A stretch of DNA of 64,000 bases from a candidate division WOR-3 bacterium (GTDB lineage: Bacteria > Hydrothermota > Tepidihabitantia > Tepidihabitantales > CAIPLT01): assembly GCA_039801505.1 (NCBI GenBank), contig JBDRUV010000001.1, positions 1 through 64,000 of the forward strand, written 5' to 3'. This document shows positions 31,727 to 40,780 of this stretch, one piece after another. The position numbers and the translations under genes are program-made. Position 1 is the first letter of the stretch. Every line of letters begins with the position of its first letter. The notes beneath the pieces are model-generated. The model saw only the letters and a program-made list of their open reading frames with translations. It did no database searches and had not been told where the DNA came from.

Positions 31727-33754
31727 TTATTTTATAATTAATTTTATGCTGGAATTGGACGTTTTATTAGATAACTGACAAAAATACACACCGGCAGGAA
31801 GTTTTCTTCCTGCAGGGTCTTTTAAATCCCAAATTAGCTCTTGGGTAATTAAAAGTTCAGTGACTAACCTTCCGTCAATATTATATATTTTTATTGACGA
31901 AGCTTCCAAACTTCCATTGAGGACAAATTTCACAAAATTTGTAGCCGGATTAGGCTCTAGATATAGGTTCAAATTCTTAAAGGCCAGCTCAGATTGTAAA
32001 ATACCGCTGCCCATTGGCCGCTGAAGATAGCTTATGCCGTCTAAATCAAAACCGGCGTACGGGTCTGAAGAGGAACCACCACCAGTATTAGTTATTCTTA
32101 TATAACGAGTACTATCTAAGCCGACTGTGGCTAAATCAAAACTTTGGGTGCCTTGGGCTGAACCAACAGTAAAGAAACTACCGCGCCAATCGTTAGAAAC
32201 CGCAACTGAATAGGCTTCTGGGGTTAAGTCACCCTCGTAGATAGTAAAATCCGGACCGGGAAAGTTTCTGATTGGGGGCACGGCCTCAAGCACAATTACG
32301 CCGGAGGGCCCTAAAGAATAAAATTGATTATCTGGGATGCCTAAAGCATCCATGGTGATTGTCCTAAAACTCATATCGGGACGGTCGCGTCGCACCCAAA
32401 CAAGTTTCTGGACATAATAGGGGATGGTACTATCAGGCACCAGTTTTACATCAACAAATACTGCCCCGGTTTCAGGAACCACTACCTCAAAGGTCTTCGG
32501 CACATAGCCGTTAGCCTCAACTTGTAAGGTATAGCTACCCGGGCCAACCATTTTATGAAAGTCACCACAAACTCGATCCGTATAAACTGGCCACCGCTTC
32601 GGATTGATAAACTTTACGATAGCAAAAAGTGGTTCATCGGTTAAAGAGTCTTTGACTACCCCAGAAATTCCCCAGCCGGCCCGAAGAATCATTTTCATAA
32701 GGGCCCGGCGATTAGCGATGCAGATACTATCGACCCGGACCTGGGTCGAAGGCTGTTGGGTCTCGATTGTGGTGCCAATCCCACCCCAGATTCCAAACAT
32801 CGCATCCTGGGCTGAGCCCCGGACATAGTACCAGTCATAACCATTAATTTTTTGCAGCTGGGTGGTCGGCGAACCATAGGTAGAATCTGCGTACTCCTGA
32901 GAAATCATAATAATATAAGCTGAGTCTGGCGGGTCTTGAGGGTGATGGTCCCAAACATAATTCACATACGAAGCTGTGGAGTGGTATTCGTATTCCAATG
33001 TGATATTATTAAGCTCGGCATGCGCTCGGATGGCTCGGGTCTCGGGTTGCGAAAATGGTGCTGGACTGCTGCCTTCACTGGCCCACATATAGCCATAATC
33101 GCGATTAAGATCTACGCCGGCTCCGTTATATCGAGAATTATTCACATGACCATCAGGATTAAGAATCGGTACAATCCAGATCTCACGGTTATTAACTAGA
33201 TTTGCGACCTGGGTATTGAAGGTGTAATTACTTAACAAGTATTGCAGAAAGGCTAATGTGACTTCTGTAGAGATTTTCTCGTTCCCATGATGGGCGCCAA
33301 CTAATCGAACCTCGGGTTCTGGTTCCTCTTGCTCCGGATTATCCGTAACCTTCATGGCTAAAATTGCTCGGCCTCCAGCCGAATAGCCTAGGGTCTCTAA
33401 CTTAGTAATCGCCGGGTATTGGGCCCGTAATGCCACAAGGATACTACAAACCTGCGTATAACTATGATACACCTGCGGCAGATCAACATAAGCCTCCCGG
33501 TAATCCGGATAGATGATTTCCAGTTTATAACCGGCATCTTTAAGTCTCTTGATCATCTGATCATTTGCGAAGGCATAAACCGCTTCGGATTGGGCATCAA
33601 CCACAGTTAGGCCAAATTGGTCCTGGAGCCGATAAACCTCATCATGCGCGGTTATTGTAATTTTAATCAACCGCTCGGGGGTATTACTTACCATGGCAAA
33701 GCCAATACACGCCCAACTAAATACCCCAATTATCAACCACGCCACATAACGCAT
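31727..33754 (-). CDS. Secreted M14 zinc carboxypeptidase with T9SS sorting domain
   Basis: The 675 residues comprise a signal peptide (about 1-20), a propeptide-like region, the M14 peptidase domain (about 110-350), a carboxypeptidase-regulatory-like beta domain (about 355-430), a further beta region, and a T9SS-type C-terminal domain with NPATNFVKFVLNG and GVYFCQLSNK. Seen: zinc motif AHHGNEKIS (HxxE), VDLNRDYGYMW with the substrate Arg-Asp region, and YEYHSTAS with the third zinc His. It removes C-terminal residues from extracellular peptides, probably for nutrition. The mRNA is predicted near-leaderless. Confidence 0.9.
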   Translation of the reverse strand: MRYVAWLIIGVFSWACIGFAMVSNTPERLIKITITAHDEVYRLQDQFGLTVVDAQSEAVYAFANDQMIKRLKDAGYKLEIIYPDYREAYVDLPQVYHSYTQVCSILVALRAQYPAITKLETLGYSAGGRAILAMKVTDNPEQEEPEPEVRLVGAHHGNEKISTEVTLAFLQYLLSNYTFNTQVANLVNNREIWIVPILNPDGHVNNSRYNGAGVDLNRDYGYMWASEGSSPAPFSQPETRAIRAHAELNNITLEYEYHSTASYVNYVWDHHPQDPPDSAYIIMISQEYADSTYGSPTTQLQKINGYDWYYVRGSAQDAMFGIWGGIGTTIETQQPSTQVRVDSICIANRRALMKMILRAGWGISGVVKDSLTDEPLFAIVKFINPKRWPVYTDRVCGDFHKMVGPGSYTLQVEANGYVPKTFEVVVPETGAVFVDVKLVPDSTIPYYVQKLVWVRRDRPDMSFRTITMDALGIPDNQFYSLGPSGVIVLEAVPPIRNFPGPDFTIYEGDLTPEAYSVAVSNDWRGSFFTVGSAQGTQSFDLATVGLDSTRYIRITNTGGGSSSDPYAGFDLDGISYLQRPMGSGILQSELAFKNLNLYLEPNPATNFVKFVLNGSLEASSIKIYNIDGRLVTELLITQELIWDLKDPAGRKLPAGVYFCQLSNKTSNSSIKLIIK

Positions 33755-35454: not shown

Positions 35455-35466
35455 AAGGAGGTGGGT

Positions 35467-37797
35467 ATGAAGCGACTCTTAGTGCTGCTTATCCCAGTAG
35501 TTCTCTTTGGTCAATGGCTGGAAACGACAATTCCAATCCCGGACTTAGTATATGGGGTTCAAAATCCGGAAGCAATTGTTAAAAATTCCTTAAACAATAG
35601 GATTTACCTCGGCGGCACTGACTGTATCATGGCCATCGATGCCAGTTCTTTTCAAAAAATCGGGCGCATCCCAATTACTGGTAAGATTAAAACCATGTGT
35701 TTTAATCCCGCCAATAATAAAATTTATGCCGGTGATGTCGCCAATAATAGTATTCTAGTCATCGACGGTCAGTCGGATTCTATTATTGCGACAATTGCTA
35801 CCGATAGTTCACCTGAGATTTTAATCTATAATCCAACTACTAACAAAATATATTGCGCGAACATTGAAAGCAATAAAATTACCGTAATTAGCGGTGCCAC
35901 CAATCAAGTAATCGCGACGATTTCTGCAGGTAATCTTCCGGTGGCCTTACTTATAAATCCCGTAACTAATATGCTATATTGTGCAAATTATAATGACAGC
36001 ACCATCTCAGTTATTAATACTCTCAATGACTCGCTTGTAACATTAATTCCGGTCCGAAGTGGCCCGAGGGCTCTGGTTTGTAATTTAACTAATAATAAGA
36101 TTTACTGTGCTAATTTTCATGGTAATTCAGTTTCCGTAATTGATGGTGCAACTAATCAAGTAATTGCCAATGTTGTGGTAAATAGACCTTATTGTTTGGT
36201 CTGGAATTCGCTGAACAATAAAATTTACTGCAGCTCATCCAGCGGAATTACTGTAATCGATGGCGTCACCAACGAAATAACTTCAACTATTATACTCAGC
36301 GCCCGGCCCAATTGTATGGTTCATAACCCGGTTAATAATAAGATCTATGCAATTATCGGTGACGAAGTAATAATTATTGATTGTGCAGCTAATCAAATCA
36401 TTACCAACATCCATTTAGAAAGTTATCTGAGTGCTTTATTATGGGACGAGACTAATAATAAAGTATACTGTGTAAATCAAGCTCGACATAATATAACTAT
36501 TATTGACGGCACAACCAACCAAAAGATTAAAACGATCCAAGTTGGTGATTTTCCGATAGCCCTTGTGTATAACAACGCCAACAATAAAGTTTATTGTGCC
36601 AATTTTTACGCCCGCAGCCTTACTGTTATCGATGGTGCTACTAATAACATTATAACCACAATACCCACAAACCACGAACCAGCTGCTCTGTGTTATAATC
36701 CAATTACCAATGAAATCTATTGTGCAAATTGTGACGCTAATAATCTCACCGTGTATAATGGGGCAACTAATGAGCTGGTCGCGACAATTGCCACCGGAGA
36801 ATGGCCCTGTGCCTTAATTTGTAATCCCTTTAATAATAAGATTTATTGTGCTAATTTTTCTAGTAATAGTGTAAGCATCATCGACGGCCATACCCACATG
36901 CTATCGAAAACCATCAATGTTGGAGCTGGTCCGTATCTTTTCAGTCATAACCTGATTAACAATAAAATCTATTGCGGTAATCGAATTGATTATACCTTAT
37001 CGATTATTGATGCCAATAATGATAGCCTGATGATTAACTATCCAATTTGGTTTGAAGTAAAAGACCTGGCTTATAATTCTGTTAACAATAAAATCTATTG
37101 CGCCGACAATTGCGGTGGCAATGTAATCTTAGTGTTTGACGGCGTTACTAATAATTTGATTAATGTGCTTCCGGCCGGCATATTACCAGTGGCCTTAGTC
37201 TATAATCCAATTAACAATAAACTTTATTGTGCTAATTATACTTCGAATAATATTACGGTTTACGATTGCGCAACTGACGATTTAATAGCAACTATTTGGG
37301 ACGGTGTCGATAAACCCTGTGCCTTATTTTACAATCCAATTAATAATAAAGTATATTGCGCCAATTATGGTAGCAATAACTTAACAGTAATTGATGGCGC
37401 CTCTAATGAAGTTATAGTCGTAATCAATGTTGGTTTAGGTCCAAAGAGATTCGCTTTTAATCTAGCGCAAAACCGAGTCTATGTGGCCAATTATAAAAGT
37501 GGCACAATTTCAGTAATTCGTGACCTAATGGCCGACATTAGAGAAACTACGTCACTAGTCAATAAGCCAGAGCTAAAACTTCAAGTCTTTCCCAATCCGG
37601 CCTCGGACGATTTTGTGGTGCATTTATCTCAAACCCCAACAAAAGTTAGAATATTCGATGTTGCGGGCACATTAATTAAAGAACTCCCAATTACCAGTTC
37701 TCAAATTAAGGTTTCCACTAAGGGAATAAAAAATGGCATCTATTTTATAAAACCCGATCAAAGCCCAGAGGTGATAAAGATTACTATTACAAAGTAA
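35467..37797 (+). CDS. Secreted YVTN-type beta-propeller protein with a cysteine ladder
   Basis: Start at ATG 35467, 5 nt after AAGGAGG; the GTG at 35461 overlaps the ribosome site. The 776 residues have a signal peptide (MKRLLVLLIPVVLFG), about 16 YVTN/NHL-like repeats of about 43 residues (roughly 40-690), and a T9SS-type C-terminal domain (FPNPASDDFVVHL, GIYFIKPDQ). Each repeat follows the pattern NNKIYCANY...ITVIDGATN...IATI. Cys follows the Tyr in 12 of 16 repeats, which is unusual for an exported protein. No CxxCH haem motif is present. Possibly two propellers in tandem, surface-attached; ligand unknown. It lies directly upstream of the two predicted selenoprotein genes. Confidence 0.85.
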   Translation: MKRLLVLLIPVVLFGQWLETTIPIPDLVYGVQNPEAIVKNSLNNRIYLGGTDCIMAIDASSFQKIGRIPITGKIKTMCFNPANNKIYAGDVANNSILVIDGQSDSIIATIATDSSPEILIYNPTTNKIYCANIESNKITVISGATNQVIATISAGNLPVALLINPVTNMLYCANYNDSTISVINTLNDSLVTLIPVRSGPRALVCNLTNNKIYCANFHGNSVSVIDGATNQVIANVVVNRPYCLVWNSLNNKIYCSSSSGITVIDGVTNEITSTIILSARPNCMVHNPVNNKIYAIIGDEVIIIDCAANQIITNIHLESYLSALLWDETNNKVYCVNQARHNITIIDGTTNQKIKTIQVGDFPIALVYNNANNKVYCANFYARSLTVIDGATNNIITTIPTNHEPAALCYNPITNEIYCANCDANNLTVYNGATNELVATIATGEWPCALICNPFNNKIYCANFSSNSVSIIDGHTHMLSKTINVGAGPYLFSHNLINNKIYCGNRIDYTLSIIDANNDSLMINYPIWFEVKDLAYNSVNNKIYCADNCGGNVILVFDGVTNNLINVLPAGILPVALVYNPINNKLYCANYTSNNITVYDCATDDLIATIWDGVDKPCALFYNPINNKVYCANYGSNNLTVIDGASNEVIVVINVGLGPKRFAFNLAQNRVYVANYKSGTISVIRDLMADIRETTSLVNKPELKLQVFPNPASDDFVVHLSQTPTKVRIFDVAGTLIKELPITSSQIKVSTKGIKNGIYFIKPDQSPEVIKITITK

Positions 37798-37803
37798 AAA
37801 CAC

Positions 37804-37832
37804 TTGACATTAGCACATAATTTCCTTATGCT
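37804..37832 (+). promoter_or_regulatory. Promoter of the tandem selenoprotein genes, near-leaderless
   Basis: TTGACA at 37804-37809, 17 bp, TATGCT at 37827-37832. ATG at 37841 with no ribosome site. No other promoter is evident before the second gene, so the two genes are likely co-transcribed. Confidence 0.72.
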
Positions 37833-37840
37833 TTTAGAGT

Positions 37841-38875
37841 ATGAAGCCATTAAAACTCGCGTTTGTTTTAATTTTTAGCAGTGCAATATCTTTAGCCTAT
37901 TGCGCAGCGCGTGTTGCGGTCTGCGAAGAACTTTACCAGGAGGGTTGAAGCTCTTGTAATCCGGCCAGTTGGACACTGGCCCAAATTTCCTATAATTACC
38001 CAGAACAAACCGCCTGTATTGAAATGCATATCTCGTCAGCATATCCATTATATTCGGCTAAAGCTCGTAACCGCATGCTTTATTTAAACCCCGGGACTAA
38101 TTATACCCCATGGCTTTTTCTGGATGGCACTTCGGCTGGCTCTAGTTATTCCAACTGGCAATCACTAATTCTGTCCCGGGCTGCAGTACCAGCCCCGATT
38201 GTTGCTCGGATGTGGGGCAGTTATAATCCCCAAACCCGAACCGGTACCGTCTATGCTTGGTTTTGGTCCGAAACCACTGCTACATTACAAGTTCGCGTGT
38301 TATTTGTTATCACCGAAGATAGCATTTTCTATCAAGCGCCCAATGGCGACAACTTACATAATCATGTCGCCCGAGACTATATTCCCGACCACATTGGAAC
38401 CTTAGTTGAACTTCGACCTGGTGATACGATTACGGTAAGCTATCCGTTTAGTTTGGCCTCAAACTGGGTGATGGAAAAATGCGAGATTGTTGCTATTATT
38501 CAAAACTCGATAGCCATAAATAACGTTCGAGAAATCTTTCAAGGTGCCAAAATTAAGATCCGCGACCTACCAACCGCCGGGGTTGAAGAAGTGGTGGATT
38601 TCTCAAGAAGTTTTGTAAAACCACAATCTTCAATTATCAAATCAAATATTGCAGAGTTTCTGATAAATCTTCCCGCTAACACCAATTACATTTTGCAGGT
38701 AGTGAATGTTTCCGGTCAACCAATTATAAGTCACACAGGAGTTTCCCGGGGCAATGAAGAACTAATCCGATTAAATCTGCCGAAAAACTTAAGCAGCGGT
38801 CTTTATTTTTATCGGCTAGAATTAAATCCCAAATTTCCGCTTGACGTCCAAGGAAAGTTTATTATACTAAATTGA
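37841..38875 (+). CDS. Predicted secreted thioredoxin-like (Omp28-like) selenoprotein
   Basis: One reading frame of 344 residues interrupted by a single TGA at 37946-37948 (residue 36). Seen: ATG behind a promoter, a signal peptide (MKPLKLAFVLIFSSAISLA), then VCEELYQEG-U-SSC, aligning with the EEFTGxWCxxC redox motif of Omp28/thioredoxin-like exported proteins, with Sec in place of the first Cys (U36, C39). The frame stays coding through a PWLFLDG strand, an Omp28-like beta domain (VLFVITEDSI...NHVARDY) and a T9SS-type C-terminal domain (NLSSGLYFYRL). A hairpin with SECIS geometry follows the TGA. Gene callers would start it wrongly at 38024, losing signal and active site. Family knowledge: thiol-disulfide exchange in the envelope; partner unknown. 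Confidence 0.85.
37946..37981 (+). promoter_or_regulatory. In-frame UGA (Sec codon) and SECIS-like hairpin, first gene
   Basis: UGA at 37946-37948. After 14 nt, GGCCAGT (37963-37969) pairs perfectly with ACTGGCC (37975-37981) around the loop TGGAC (37970-37974). The loop starts 21 nt after the UGA and has G as its second base, both within the published bacterial SECIS rules (loop 16-37 nt from UGA; G in the first two loop bases). The stem is coding (ASWTLA). Confidence 0.82.
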
Positions 38876-38887
38876 AGCGGAGGTAGT

Positions 38888-40780
38888 ATGCGAAAAGTTG
38901 TACTACTTTTGGGATGTAGCATTTGGCTGCTTTGGGCTGGAAGACTCCTAACAAACGGTGATTTTGAACAGCCATTAAATATCAGTTGGTATAGTTCGAT
39001 TATCTCAGCCACCTCTTATGATACCATTGACCGACAAGCTTACTTTCATCCGGACCCGGATTATGAGGTGCGCGTAAAAAAATATGACGCAGTCTGTGCC
39101 AAGCTTTATCAGACAGTGCCCATTCCCACGACCGACCTAGACTTTTCGGTAAATGCCAAACTATATGCCTATGAATATAATCCTTCGGCATCCTATTGGG
39201 CAGCCGCGGCTGTTATTCTAAGATATCTTGATAGTAACAATAATCTCCTTGGCGAGACCAGAATTACCTATAAAACTCCTCATTCGCCTTGGATTAATAC
39301 ATCGACCATCCATCTCATCAATGCCCCAGACCCTAATAACTGGTATCAGTACAGTTTCAATCTAAATTCAGAACTCACTAATCTGCCTGGGGTCAATCCT
39401 TCGGCTATCCGGAAGATTCAAGTGGTATTAATGGATACCACAGACGGATGTTGAGCCGGCCATTGTGAGGCGAGGGTCCTCGCCGATGATGTTTCCCTTA
39501 ATTATAACGGTCCGAATCCTTATCTAAGTTTTCTACGGGCCAATGTGTATGATTCTTTAGGCAATAATAATAACCGCTTAGACCCCGGAGAAAGAGCGAA
39601 TCTTACCGTAGTTTTTAGAAATATTGGCGGTGTTAATTTTAATAATCTTTCTGCACAACTGTTCACCTCGGATCCTTATATTACGATAATCGATGGCAGT
39701 GCCAATTACGGGTCTCTGGCGATTGATAGCACCAGGGAAAATCTTTTTGATCCATTTACGGTTCAAGTAAGTCCAAGCTCTCCCTGTGGCCGCGCGGTGT
39801 TGTTTAAAATTATTGCTAGTGATTCTGGTTATTTAGATACCTTCGAATTCTCGTTGACCGTCGGTCCTTATCACTATCTTGTCTGGAATCCAGACCCAAC
39901 TCCTTCCTCTGGGCAGATCATTCATAACACCTTAAGAAATCTAGGCTATACAGGTACAATCACAACCGAGCTCTTAACTGAACCGCTAGATCTTTACCAG
40001 TCGCTGTTTATTACCCTTGGGATTTATCCTAATAATTATCGGATTCCGGCCAATAGTCAAGAAGCTTTAGCAATTGTTAATTACTTAAATAACGGCGGAC
40101 GGGTGTACTTAGAGGGGGGTGATGCCTGGTATTATGACCCCCAGGTCGGTGGTCATAATTTCAATAGCTTATTTGGGCTTACTGGGATAAGCGATGGCAG
40201 TGGTGATTTAGGGCCGGTCCTAGGTTTTGCTAATACCTTTACCCAGAGTATGTATTTTAATTATTCCGGGGAAAACAACTATATCGATCGCATTAATGCC
40301 ACAAATGGTTTTTTAATTTTTCGCGATGGTGATAATAGTTATAATTGCGGGGTTGCGTATAGTCCGGGCAATTACCGAACAGTTGGCCTTTCATTTGAAT
40401 TAGGTGGGTTGGTTGATGCCCAACCGCCCTCAACTAAAGCGGTACTTCTTGATTCTATAATGAGATTTTTTGGTATCACCCTAACCGCACTTACAGAAAC
40501 CCCAGAACCGGGATTTTTACAGACCCTAGAGTTGCTCTGTAGCCCTAATCCTTTTAGCACATTTACAAAAATTAAACTTCCTGATTCTAATATTTTAAGC
40601 CTAAAAATATACGATATCCAAGGTACTTTAGTTAAAGAAATCAGCCCATCTCCAGGAAACGATATCGTATGGACCGGTAAAGATCATAAAGGGAAAAAGC
40701 TTCCTTCTGGCGTCTACTTTATAATACCTACCGGGCCTACAGAATATAAGCCTGTGCGCGTGCTGTTAATCAAATATTAA
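38888..40780 (+). CDS. Predicted secreted selenoprotein with T9SS sorting domain
   Basis: One frame of 630 residues interrupted by a single TGA at 39452-39454 (residue 189). Seen: GGAGG ribosome site, signal peptide (MRKVVLLLGCSIWLLWA), a jelly-roll-like domain (about 20-200: LLTNGDFEQPLN, YWAAAAVILRYLD) that ends DGC-U-AGHC with Sec next to Cys188 and four residues before Cys193, a CARDB/Ig-like domain (about 220-315: NNNNRLDPGERANLTV), a glutaminase-fold-like region (about 320-525: IVNYLNNGGRVYLEGGD) and a T9SS C-terminal domain (LKIYDIQGTLVKE, SGVYFII). Ordinary annotation would report two genes (38888-39454 and 39545-40780). The 3' end overlaps convergent murJ by 11 bp. Confidence 0.85.
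39452..39484 (+). promoter_or_regulatory. In-frame UGA (Sec codon) and SECIS-like hairpin, second gene
   Basis: UGA at 39452-39454. GGCGAG (39469-39474) pairs perfectly with CTCGCC (39479-39484) around the tetraloop GGTC (39475-39478), which starts 20 nt after the UGA. GGUC is the loop of the E. coli fdhF SECIS minimal element bound by SelB. Confidence 0.87.

Follow-up and report, generated by a model that had tools for sequence, protein, structure and literature searches.

The question raised by this locus is whether a UGA codon in an otherwise open reading frame of an uncultured WOR-3 bacterium ends a gene or is decoded as selenocysteine (Sec). The whole stretch of DNA analysed, referred to as the window, corresponds to the initial 64 kb of contig C1 in a MAG of 1.94 Mb and 96% completeness. 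In a preliminary description, a thioredoxin/Omp28-like protein was assigned to a frame extending from 37841 to 38875 through UGA 37946-37948, and this frame as well as its active-site motif, signal peptide, and promoter are indeed present in the sequence. That account stands for gene 1, but it overlooked the adjoining gene 2 with a UGA and a hairpin of its own. The locus very probably represents a two-gene operon for exported selenoproteins, in which UGA 37946 and UGA 39452 are both decoded as Sec and gene 1 encodes a thiol/selenol-disulfide oxidoreductase. Its features are as follows, with the evidence in brackets.

37804..37832, + strand: promoter-like site TTGACA-17-TATGCT (10 of 12 consensus matches)
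37841..38875, + strand: gene 1, predicted secreted Omp28-like thioredoxin-fold selenoprotein of 344 aa (frame, homologues, Pfam, and predicted fold)
37946..37948, + strand: in-frame UGA of gene 1, very probably read as selenocysteine, U36 (homologues show UGA or Cys at this alignment position)
37963..37981, + strand: bacterial SECIS hairpin of gene 1, GGCCAGU-UGGAC-ACUGGCC (folding and covariation)
38888..40780, + strand: gene 2, predicted secreted selenoprotein of 630 aa from a family outside Pfam and NCBIfam (frame, homologues, and predicted fold)
39452..39454, + strand: in-frame UGA of gene 2, putative U189, in the motif D-G-C-U-A-G-H-C (aligned homologues)
39469..39484, + strand: SECIS hairpin of gene 2, GGCGAG-GGUC-CUCGCC, loop 20 nt past the UGA (folding and covariation)

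The deduced product of gene 1 is composed of a signal peptide (MKPLKLAFVLIFSSAISLAYCA, judged by eye), a Trx domain with U36-x-x-C39, a beta-sandwich, and a T9SS type A C-terminal domain. The active-site motif reads EE-LYQE-G-U-SSC (U36-S-S-C39), and the termination codon is UGA 38873-38875. No Shine-Dalgarno match was detected ahead of gene 1, and the distance from the end of the -10 box to ATG 37841 is 8 nt; thus the transcript may be nearly leaderless. The terminal UGA was also considered as a readthrough candidate, since the ATG of gene 2 follows 15 nt later in the same frame. Due to the fact that this arrangement is unconserved, with unrelated intergenic gaps in the homologues, UGA 38873-38875 is regarded as the genuine termination codon of gene 1.

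Two UGAs in the 64-kb window, those at 37946 and 39452, are preceded by at least 34 and followed by at least 250 open codons, and composition-matched shuffles of the window yielded zero UGAs passing this test. A further UGA/hairpin candidate at 31776 was discarded, as it lies antisense to a long gene.

Homologues of gene 1 were found in 99 of the 147 genomes of the phylum searched, and UGA-bearing homologues (E<=1e-35) occur in 45 of the 147. All 30 UGA short-form copies carry the UGA at a single alignment column, in a U-x-x-C context, and four longer gene 1 paralogues have it at the same column, while this column is occupied by Cys in all 16 UGA-free homologues examined. An unrelated residue was never encountered at this site. 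C39 is invariant among 27 aligned homologues, and for codons 37-245 a dN/dS of 0.075 was obtained in comparison to the sister genome G096. A contig scan, which detects close relatives only, revealed eight loci related to gene 1, all of them in WOR-3/Stahlbacteria.

These observations bear on the most conventional explanation, namely that the UGA is a true stop and gene 1 a pseudogene, the product of a sequencing error, or a short peptide followed by a separate ORF from 38024. Standard table 11 annotation would indeed give the ORF 38024-38875, and the window derives from a MAG. However, dozens of independent genomes share the UGA at this codon position, the codons on either side of it are under purifying selection in one frame, every UGA-free homologue examined possesses Cys at the site, and two such UGAs occur side by side where none is expected by chance. 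Conservation has already refuted the true-stop explanation, and its remaining probability is negligible. In many WOR-3 genomes both adjacent genes would be misannotated as truncated.

The genome encodes the complete set of selenium genes named in the preliminary description (selA, selB, selC, and selD), all four of which are located on the same contig as genes 1 and 2.

Contig C1, 118885-118974: tRNA-Sec (selC), 77 bits, ARAGORN anticodon TCA (UCA)
Contig C1, 120004-121884: selB, 347 bits
Contig C1, 121918-123288: selA, 545 bits
Contig C1, 144080-144988: selD, with an in-frame UGA

The UGA of selD (L075:1522-1524) occurs in the context C-P-G-U-A-S-K and is followed by the hairpin GAGCC-AGUU-GGCUC; with its own UGA and hairpin, this selenoprotein SelD is an internal positive control. 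Across the phylum, selA scored over the cut-off in 41 of the 45 genomes with a UGA form versus 18 of the 102 others (Fisher p=1e-17), and in none of the 21 genomes having only UGA-free homologues of gene 1. The UGA genomes without selA over the cut-off (G071, G073, G076, and G101) are incomplete or hold only a fragment. Decoding of the UGA as an amino acid other than Sec, i.e., as Trp by a changed genetic code or as Cys by a suppressor tRNA, is therefore highly improbable. The Cys-bearing homologues taken alone also fit a UGA read as Cys, but gene 1 itself terminates with UGA, Trp would not substitute for Cys in a UxxC motif, tRNA-Sec, selA, selB, and selD are present with selA tracking the UGA forms, and each UGA is accompanied by a covarying SECIS-like hairpin.

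The gene 1 hairpin corresponds to the one described previously, with 7 bp, a folding energy of -11.9 kcal/mol, and the loop UGGAC at 21 nt past the UGA. Bacterial SECIS elements are expected as hairpins 16-37 nt after the UGA with a G within the first two loop bases (PMC13188914), and both this spacing and the loop G are found in gene 1. Folded as a single sequence, neither the hairpin of gene 1 nor that of gene 2 is better than many shuffles: 19 of 200 shuffles of the 45-nt hairpin region of gene 1 fold equally well, and -7.5 kcal/mol is reached by 41 of 900 codon-shuffled downstream regions. Of the 16 Cys homologues of gene 1, 4 have a chance hairpin at -7 or lower. The hairpin alone is weak evidence, and it is conservation that carries the selenoprotein case. 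Most of the 30 short-form homologues share the hairpin GCCAGY-NNNNN-RCUGGC, which begins 15 nt past the UGA. The helix is paired in 93.7% of the alignment cells, with 14 cells altered on both sides, and its covariation exceeds that of each of the 500 shuffles and of every slid control. Median hairpin energies are -10.6 for the Sec forms versus -1.8 for the Cys forms (p=2e-6). Both the UGA of gene 1 and its base-paired hairpin are kept across the phylum.

The assignment of gene 1 to the thioredoxin/Omp28 type holds, since the Pfam family Omp28 (PF11551) is matched with 44.8 bits, over the gathering cut-off of 34.9, and the predicted fold resembles known structures. The AlphaFold model (pLDDT 90) comprises a thioredoxin domain, a beta-sandwich, and a C-terminal domain, with U36 located just before the first thioredoxin helix. 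Its best fold match in the PDB is HBP35 of Porphyromonas gingivalis (5y1a, E=4.9e-15), and the DUF1223 structure 2axo is matched as well, with a sequence score for DUF1223 (PF06764) slightly under the cut-off; sequence searches of the PDB returned no match. Unlike Omp28 and DUF1223 proteins, gene 1 has Sec at the first active-site position. HBP35 likewise combines a thioredoxin domain with a T9SS C-terminal domain, but contains CxxC in place of UxxC and is 13% identical. It is a T9SS cargo with an insulin reductase activity requiring its two Cys, and it also binds hemin (PMC2907840).

Among known selenoproteins, the nearest relative is the Omp28-related selenoprotein NF045500, which corresponds to the hypothetical protein GOS_C of Zhang and Gladyshev 2008 (PMC2398784) and is likewise an Omp28-type thioredoxin-fold protein with Sec in UxxC. 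Residues 22-245 of gene 1 align to it with 41.3 bits (E 1.2e-10), which makes gene 1 a relative, though a non-member by the cut-off of 200 bits. In contrast to NF045500, the WOR-3 copies carry a T9SS tail and reside in a cluster of several selenoprotein genes. With 41 versus 200 bits, gene 1 is by sequence similarity a divergent branch within an already known type of selenoprotein rather than a new kind. The earlier reading as an exported selenoprotein oxidoreductase is thus supported, with the qualification that gene 1 has a second selenoprotein gene beside it and that its type had been described before. Additional interest comes from gene 2 and from the conserved cluster, whose products appear to be exported. 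A literature search for selenoproteins in combination with Omp28, Stahlbacteria, WOR-3, or T9SS retrieved no relevant paper.

The product of gene 2 starts with an N-terminal CBM16-like jelly roll containing U189, which is followed by Ig-like and alpha/beta regions and, at the C-terminus, by a T9SS domain. The N-terminal region is predicted to adopt a jelly-roll fold similar to CBM16 (PDB 3oea and 2zex, TM about 0.6 by target length). The domain differs from CBM16 in having no CBM sequence match and in its near-invariant Sec, placed in a loop between two strands. No family was matched by this domain in Pfam (E<=1) or NCBIfam, and gene 2 founds a selenoprotein family which is absent from the 119 families of the 2026 catalogue. 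A profile search detected the domain in 50 of the 147 phylum genomes, with exactly one TGA in nearly every full-length copy. Altogether 72 distinct UGA forms were read, as opposed to a single Cys form (G105:C1:2500109), which retains a residual hairpin of -7.4 kcal/mol. In an alignment of 59 copies the UGA occupies one column in 53, lies a few columns off in five, and is replaced by Cys in one. In contrast to most selenoprotein families, Cys counterparts of gene 2 are therefore nearly absent from the genomes searched, and this scarcity can be used to ask why Sec has been retained. Cys residues near the UGA vary (GCUxGHC, HTCUGA, SGUGT), and a conserved CxxU or UxxC around the Sec was not found among the aligned copies; thus Sec is the constant element. 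Synonymous sites of gene 2 are saturated, for which reason no dN/dS figure is given.

Over the 72 distinct UGA forms of gene 2, the hairpin is located 17-26 nt past the UGA with the loop GGUY (AGUU in four). Merely 3 of 408 scored pairs are non-standard, 4 of the 6 pairs vary on both sides, and the covariation score exceeds all 500 shuffles. The residue pairs flanking the loop are K-F (36), E-S (18), R-L (6), W-Y (1), and Q-C (1), with the G-U intermediates E-F (4) and R-F (2). Given this compensatory substitution, RNA pairing shapes the protein sequence, i.e., the encoded residues beside the loop follow the RNA structure.

In 17 of the 40 genomes having both genes, many of which are fragmented, genes 1 and 2 share a strand and lie no more than 3.5 kb apart, and gene 1 is located upstream of gene 2 in 24 of 28 pairs. 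In 14 genomes, gene 2 is adjoined by a third UGA gene encoding a lipoprotein-like thioredoxin with UxxC.

L102:1173-1889, - strand: third Sec gene, encoding a lipoprotein-like thioredoxin (also at L100, L101, L104, L114, and L115)

Its motif is TNRxVLxEFFTDDxUxFC and its hairpin is GCGCUUGC-GGA-GCAAGCGC. In case of G067, G094, and G085, selA is found 4-9 kb from the cluster. The multi-selenoprotein operons SAO and Tso (PMC13188914) resemble this arrangement in that several selenoprotein genes are kept together, suggesting one pathway, but consist of other families, and the WOR-3 proteins are apparently exported.

Both proteins carry a signal peptide (by eye) and pass the cut-off of 23 bits for the T9SS type A tail (TIGR04183) marginally, with 23.4 bits for gene 1 and 24.1 for gene 2. 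A SprA homologue over the TIGR04189 cut-off is encoded in the genome. Signal peptide and tail together suggest that both proteins are exported and located at the surface. According to the proposed mechanism, SelA, SelB, tRNA-Sec(UCA), and SelD would insert Sec at UGA 37946 and UGA 39452, directed in each case by the hairpin about 20 nt downstream, and export of both proteins from the cell would be mediated by the Sec signal peptide together with the T9SS-type tail. Positioned where the first thioredoxin helix begins, U36 would then attack a disulfide (or a peroxide or polysulfide), after which the Se-S bond would be resolved by C39; the reaction would follow that of HBP35, except that Sec replaces the first Cys. 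For gene 2, whose Sec lies in a loop of the CBM-like jelly roll, a function as partner or substrate within this extracellular redox chain is probable, and in relatives the Sec or Cys thioredoxin-like lipoprotein of the same cluster would be the likely electron link. The role of gene 2, the redox substrate, a cooperation between the two proteins, and a relay involving the lipoprotein are suggested by gene order, linkage, and analogy.

Alternatively, the selenoproteins might function in the periplasm, or have metals or heme as their targets, instead of serving as extracellular disulfide oxidoreductases. The hemin binding of HBP35, the closest fold match, the marginal tail scores, and the position of the gene 2 Sec in a CBM-like fold without conserved CxxU or UxxC would agree with such a function. 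On the other hand, U-x-x-C is placed where the first thioredoxin helix of gene 1 begins, with C39 invariant in 27 homologues, and hemin binding leaves the UxxC unexplained, because hemin is reportedly bound by a truncated form of HBP35 that lacks the thioredoxin region (PMC2907840). We consider this alternative rather unlikely and prefer the extracellular oxidoreductase, in which case the clusters would indicate an extracellular selenium chemistry in this uncultured phylum. Going further, one may speculate, with the chances evenly divided, that a dedicated extracellular selenol relay operates across the outer membrane, composed of the T9SS UxxC thioredoxin, the Sec jelly roll of a new and almost exclusively Sec-containing family, and frequently a Sec lipoprotein, with the SECIS dictating amino-acid pairs near the jelly-roll active site.

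Considering the starts of gene 1 and of the lipoprotein genes at L100, L101, L102, L104, L114, and L115, a -10 box is situated 5-8 nt upstream and a Shine-Dalgarno sequence is lacking; in 5 of the 6 lipoprotein genes TTGACA and TATAAT are spaced about 16 nt apart. This suggests leaderless transcripts for gene 1 as well as for the lipoprotein genes. Directly upstream of gene 1, a YVTN-type beta-propeller with a T9SS tail and no in-frame UGA is encoded at 35461-37797 of the window. On contig C3 of the same genome (L161:2230-4392), a Cys-only pair shares the design of the Sec genes, with a T9SS-tailed thioredoxin (WCxxC) preceding a lipoprotein thioredoxin (RCxxC). Finally, in two genomes of one genus (L105:6529 and L106:5693, both + strand), the selenoprotein cluster contains a gene for a propeller-like repeat protein with an in-frame UGA in NIIYALEGSGUGNAELYKSTDGG, preceded by 413 codons, followed by 348, and accompanied by a hairpin at 32 nt.
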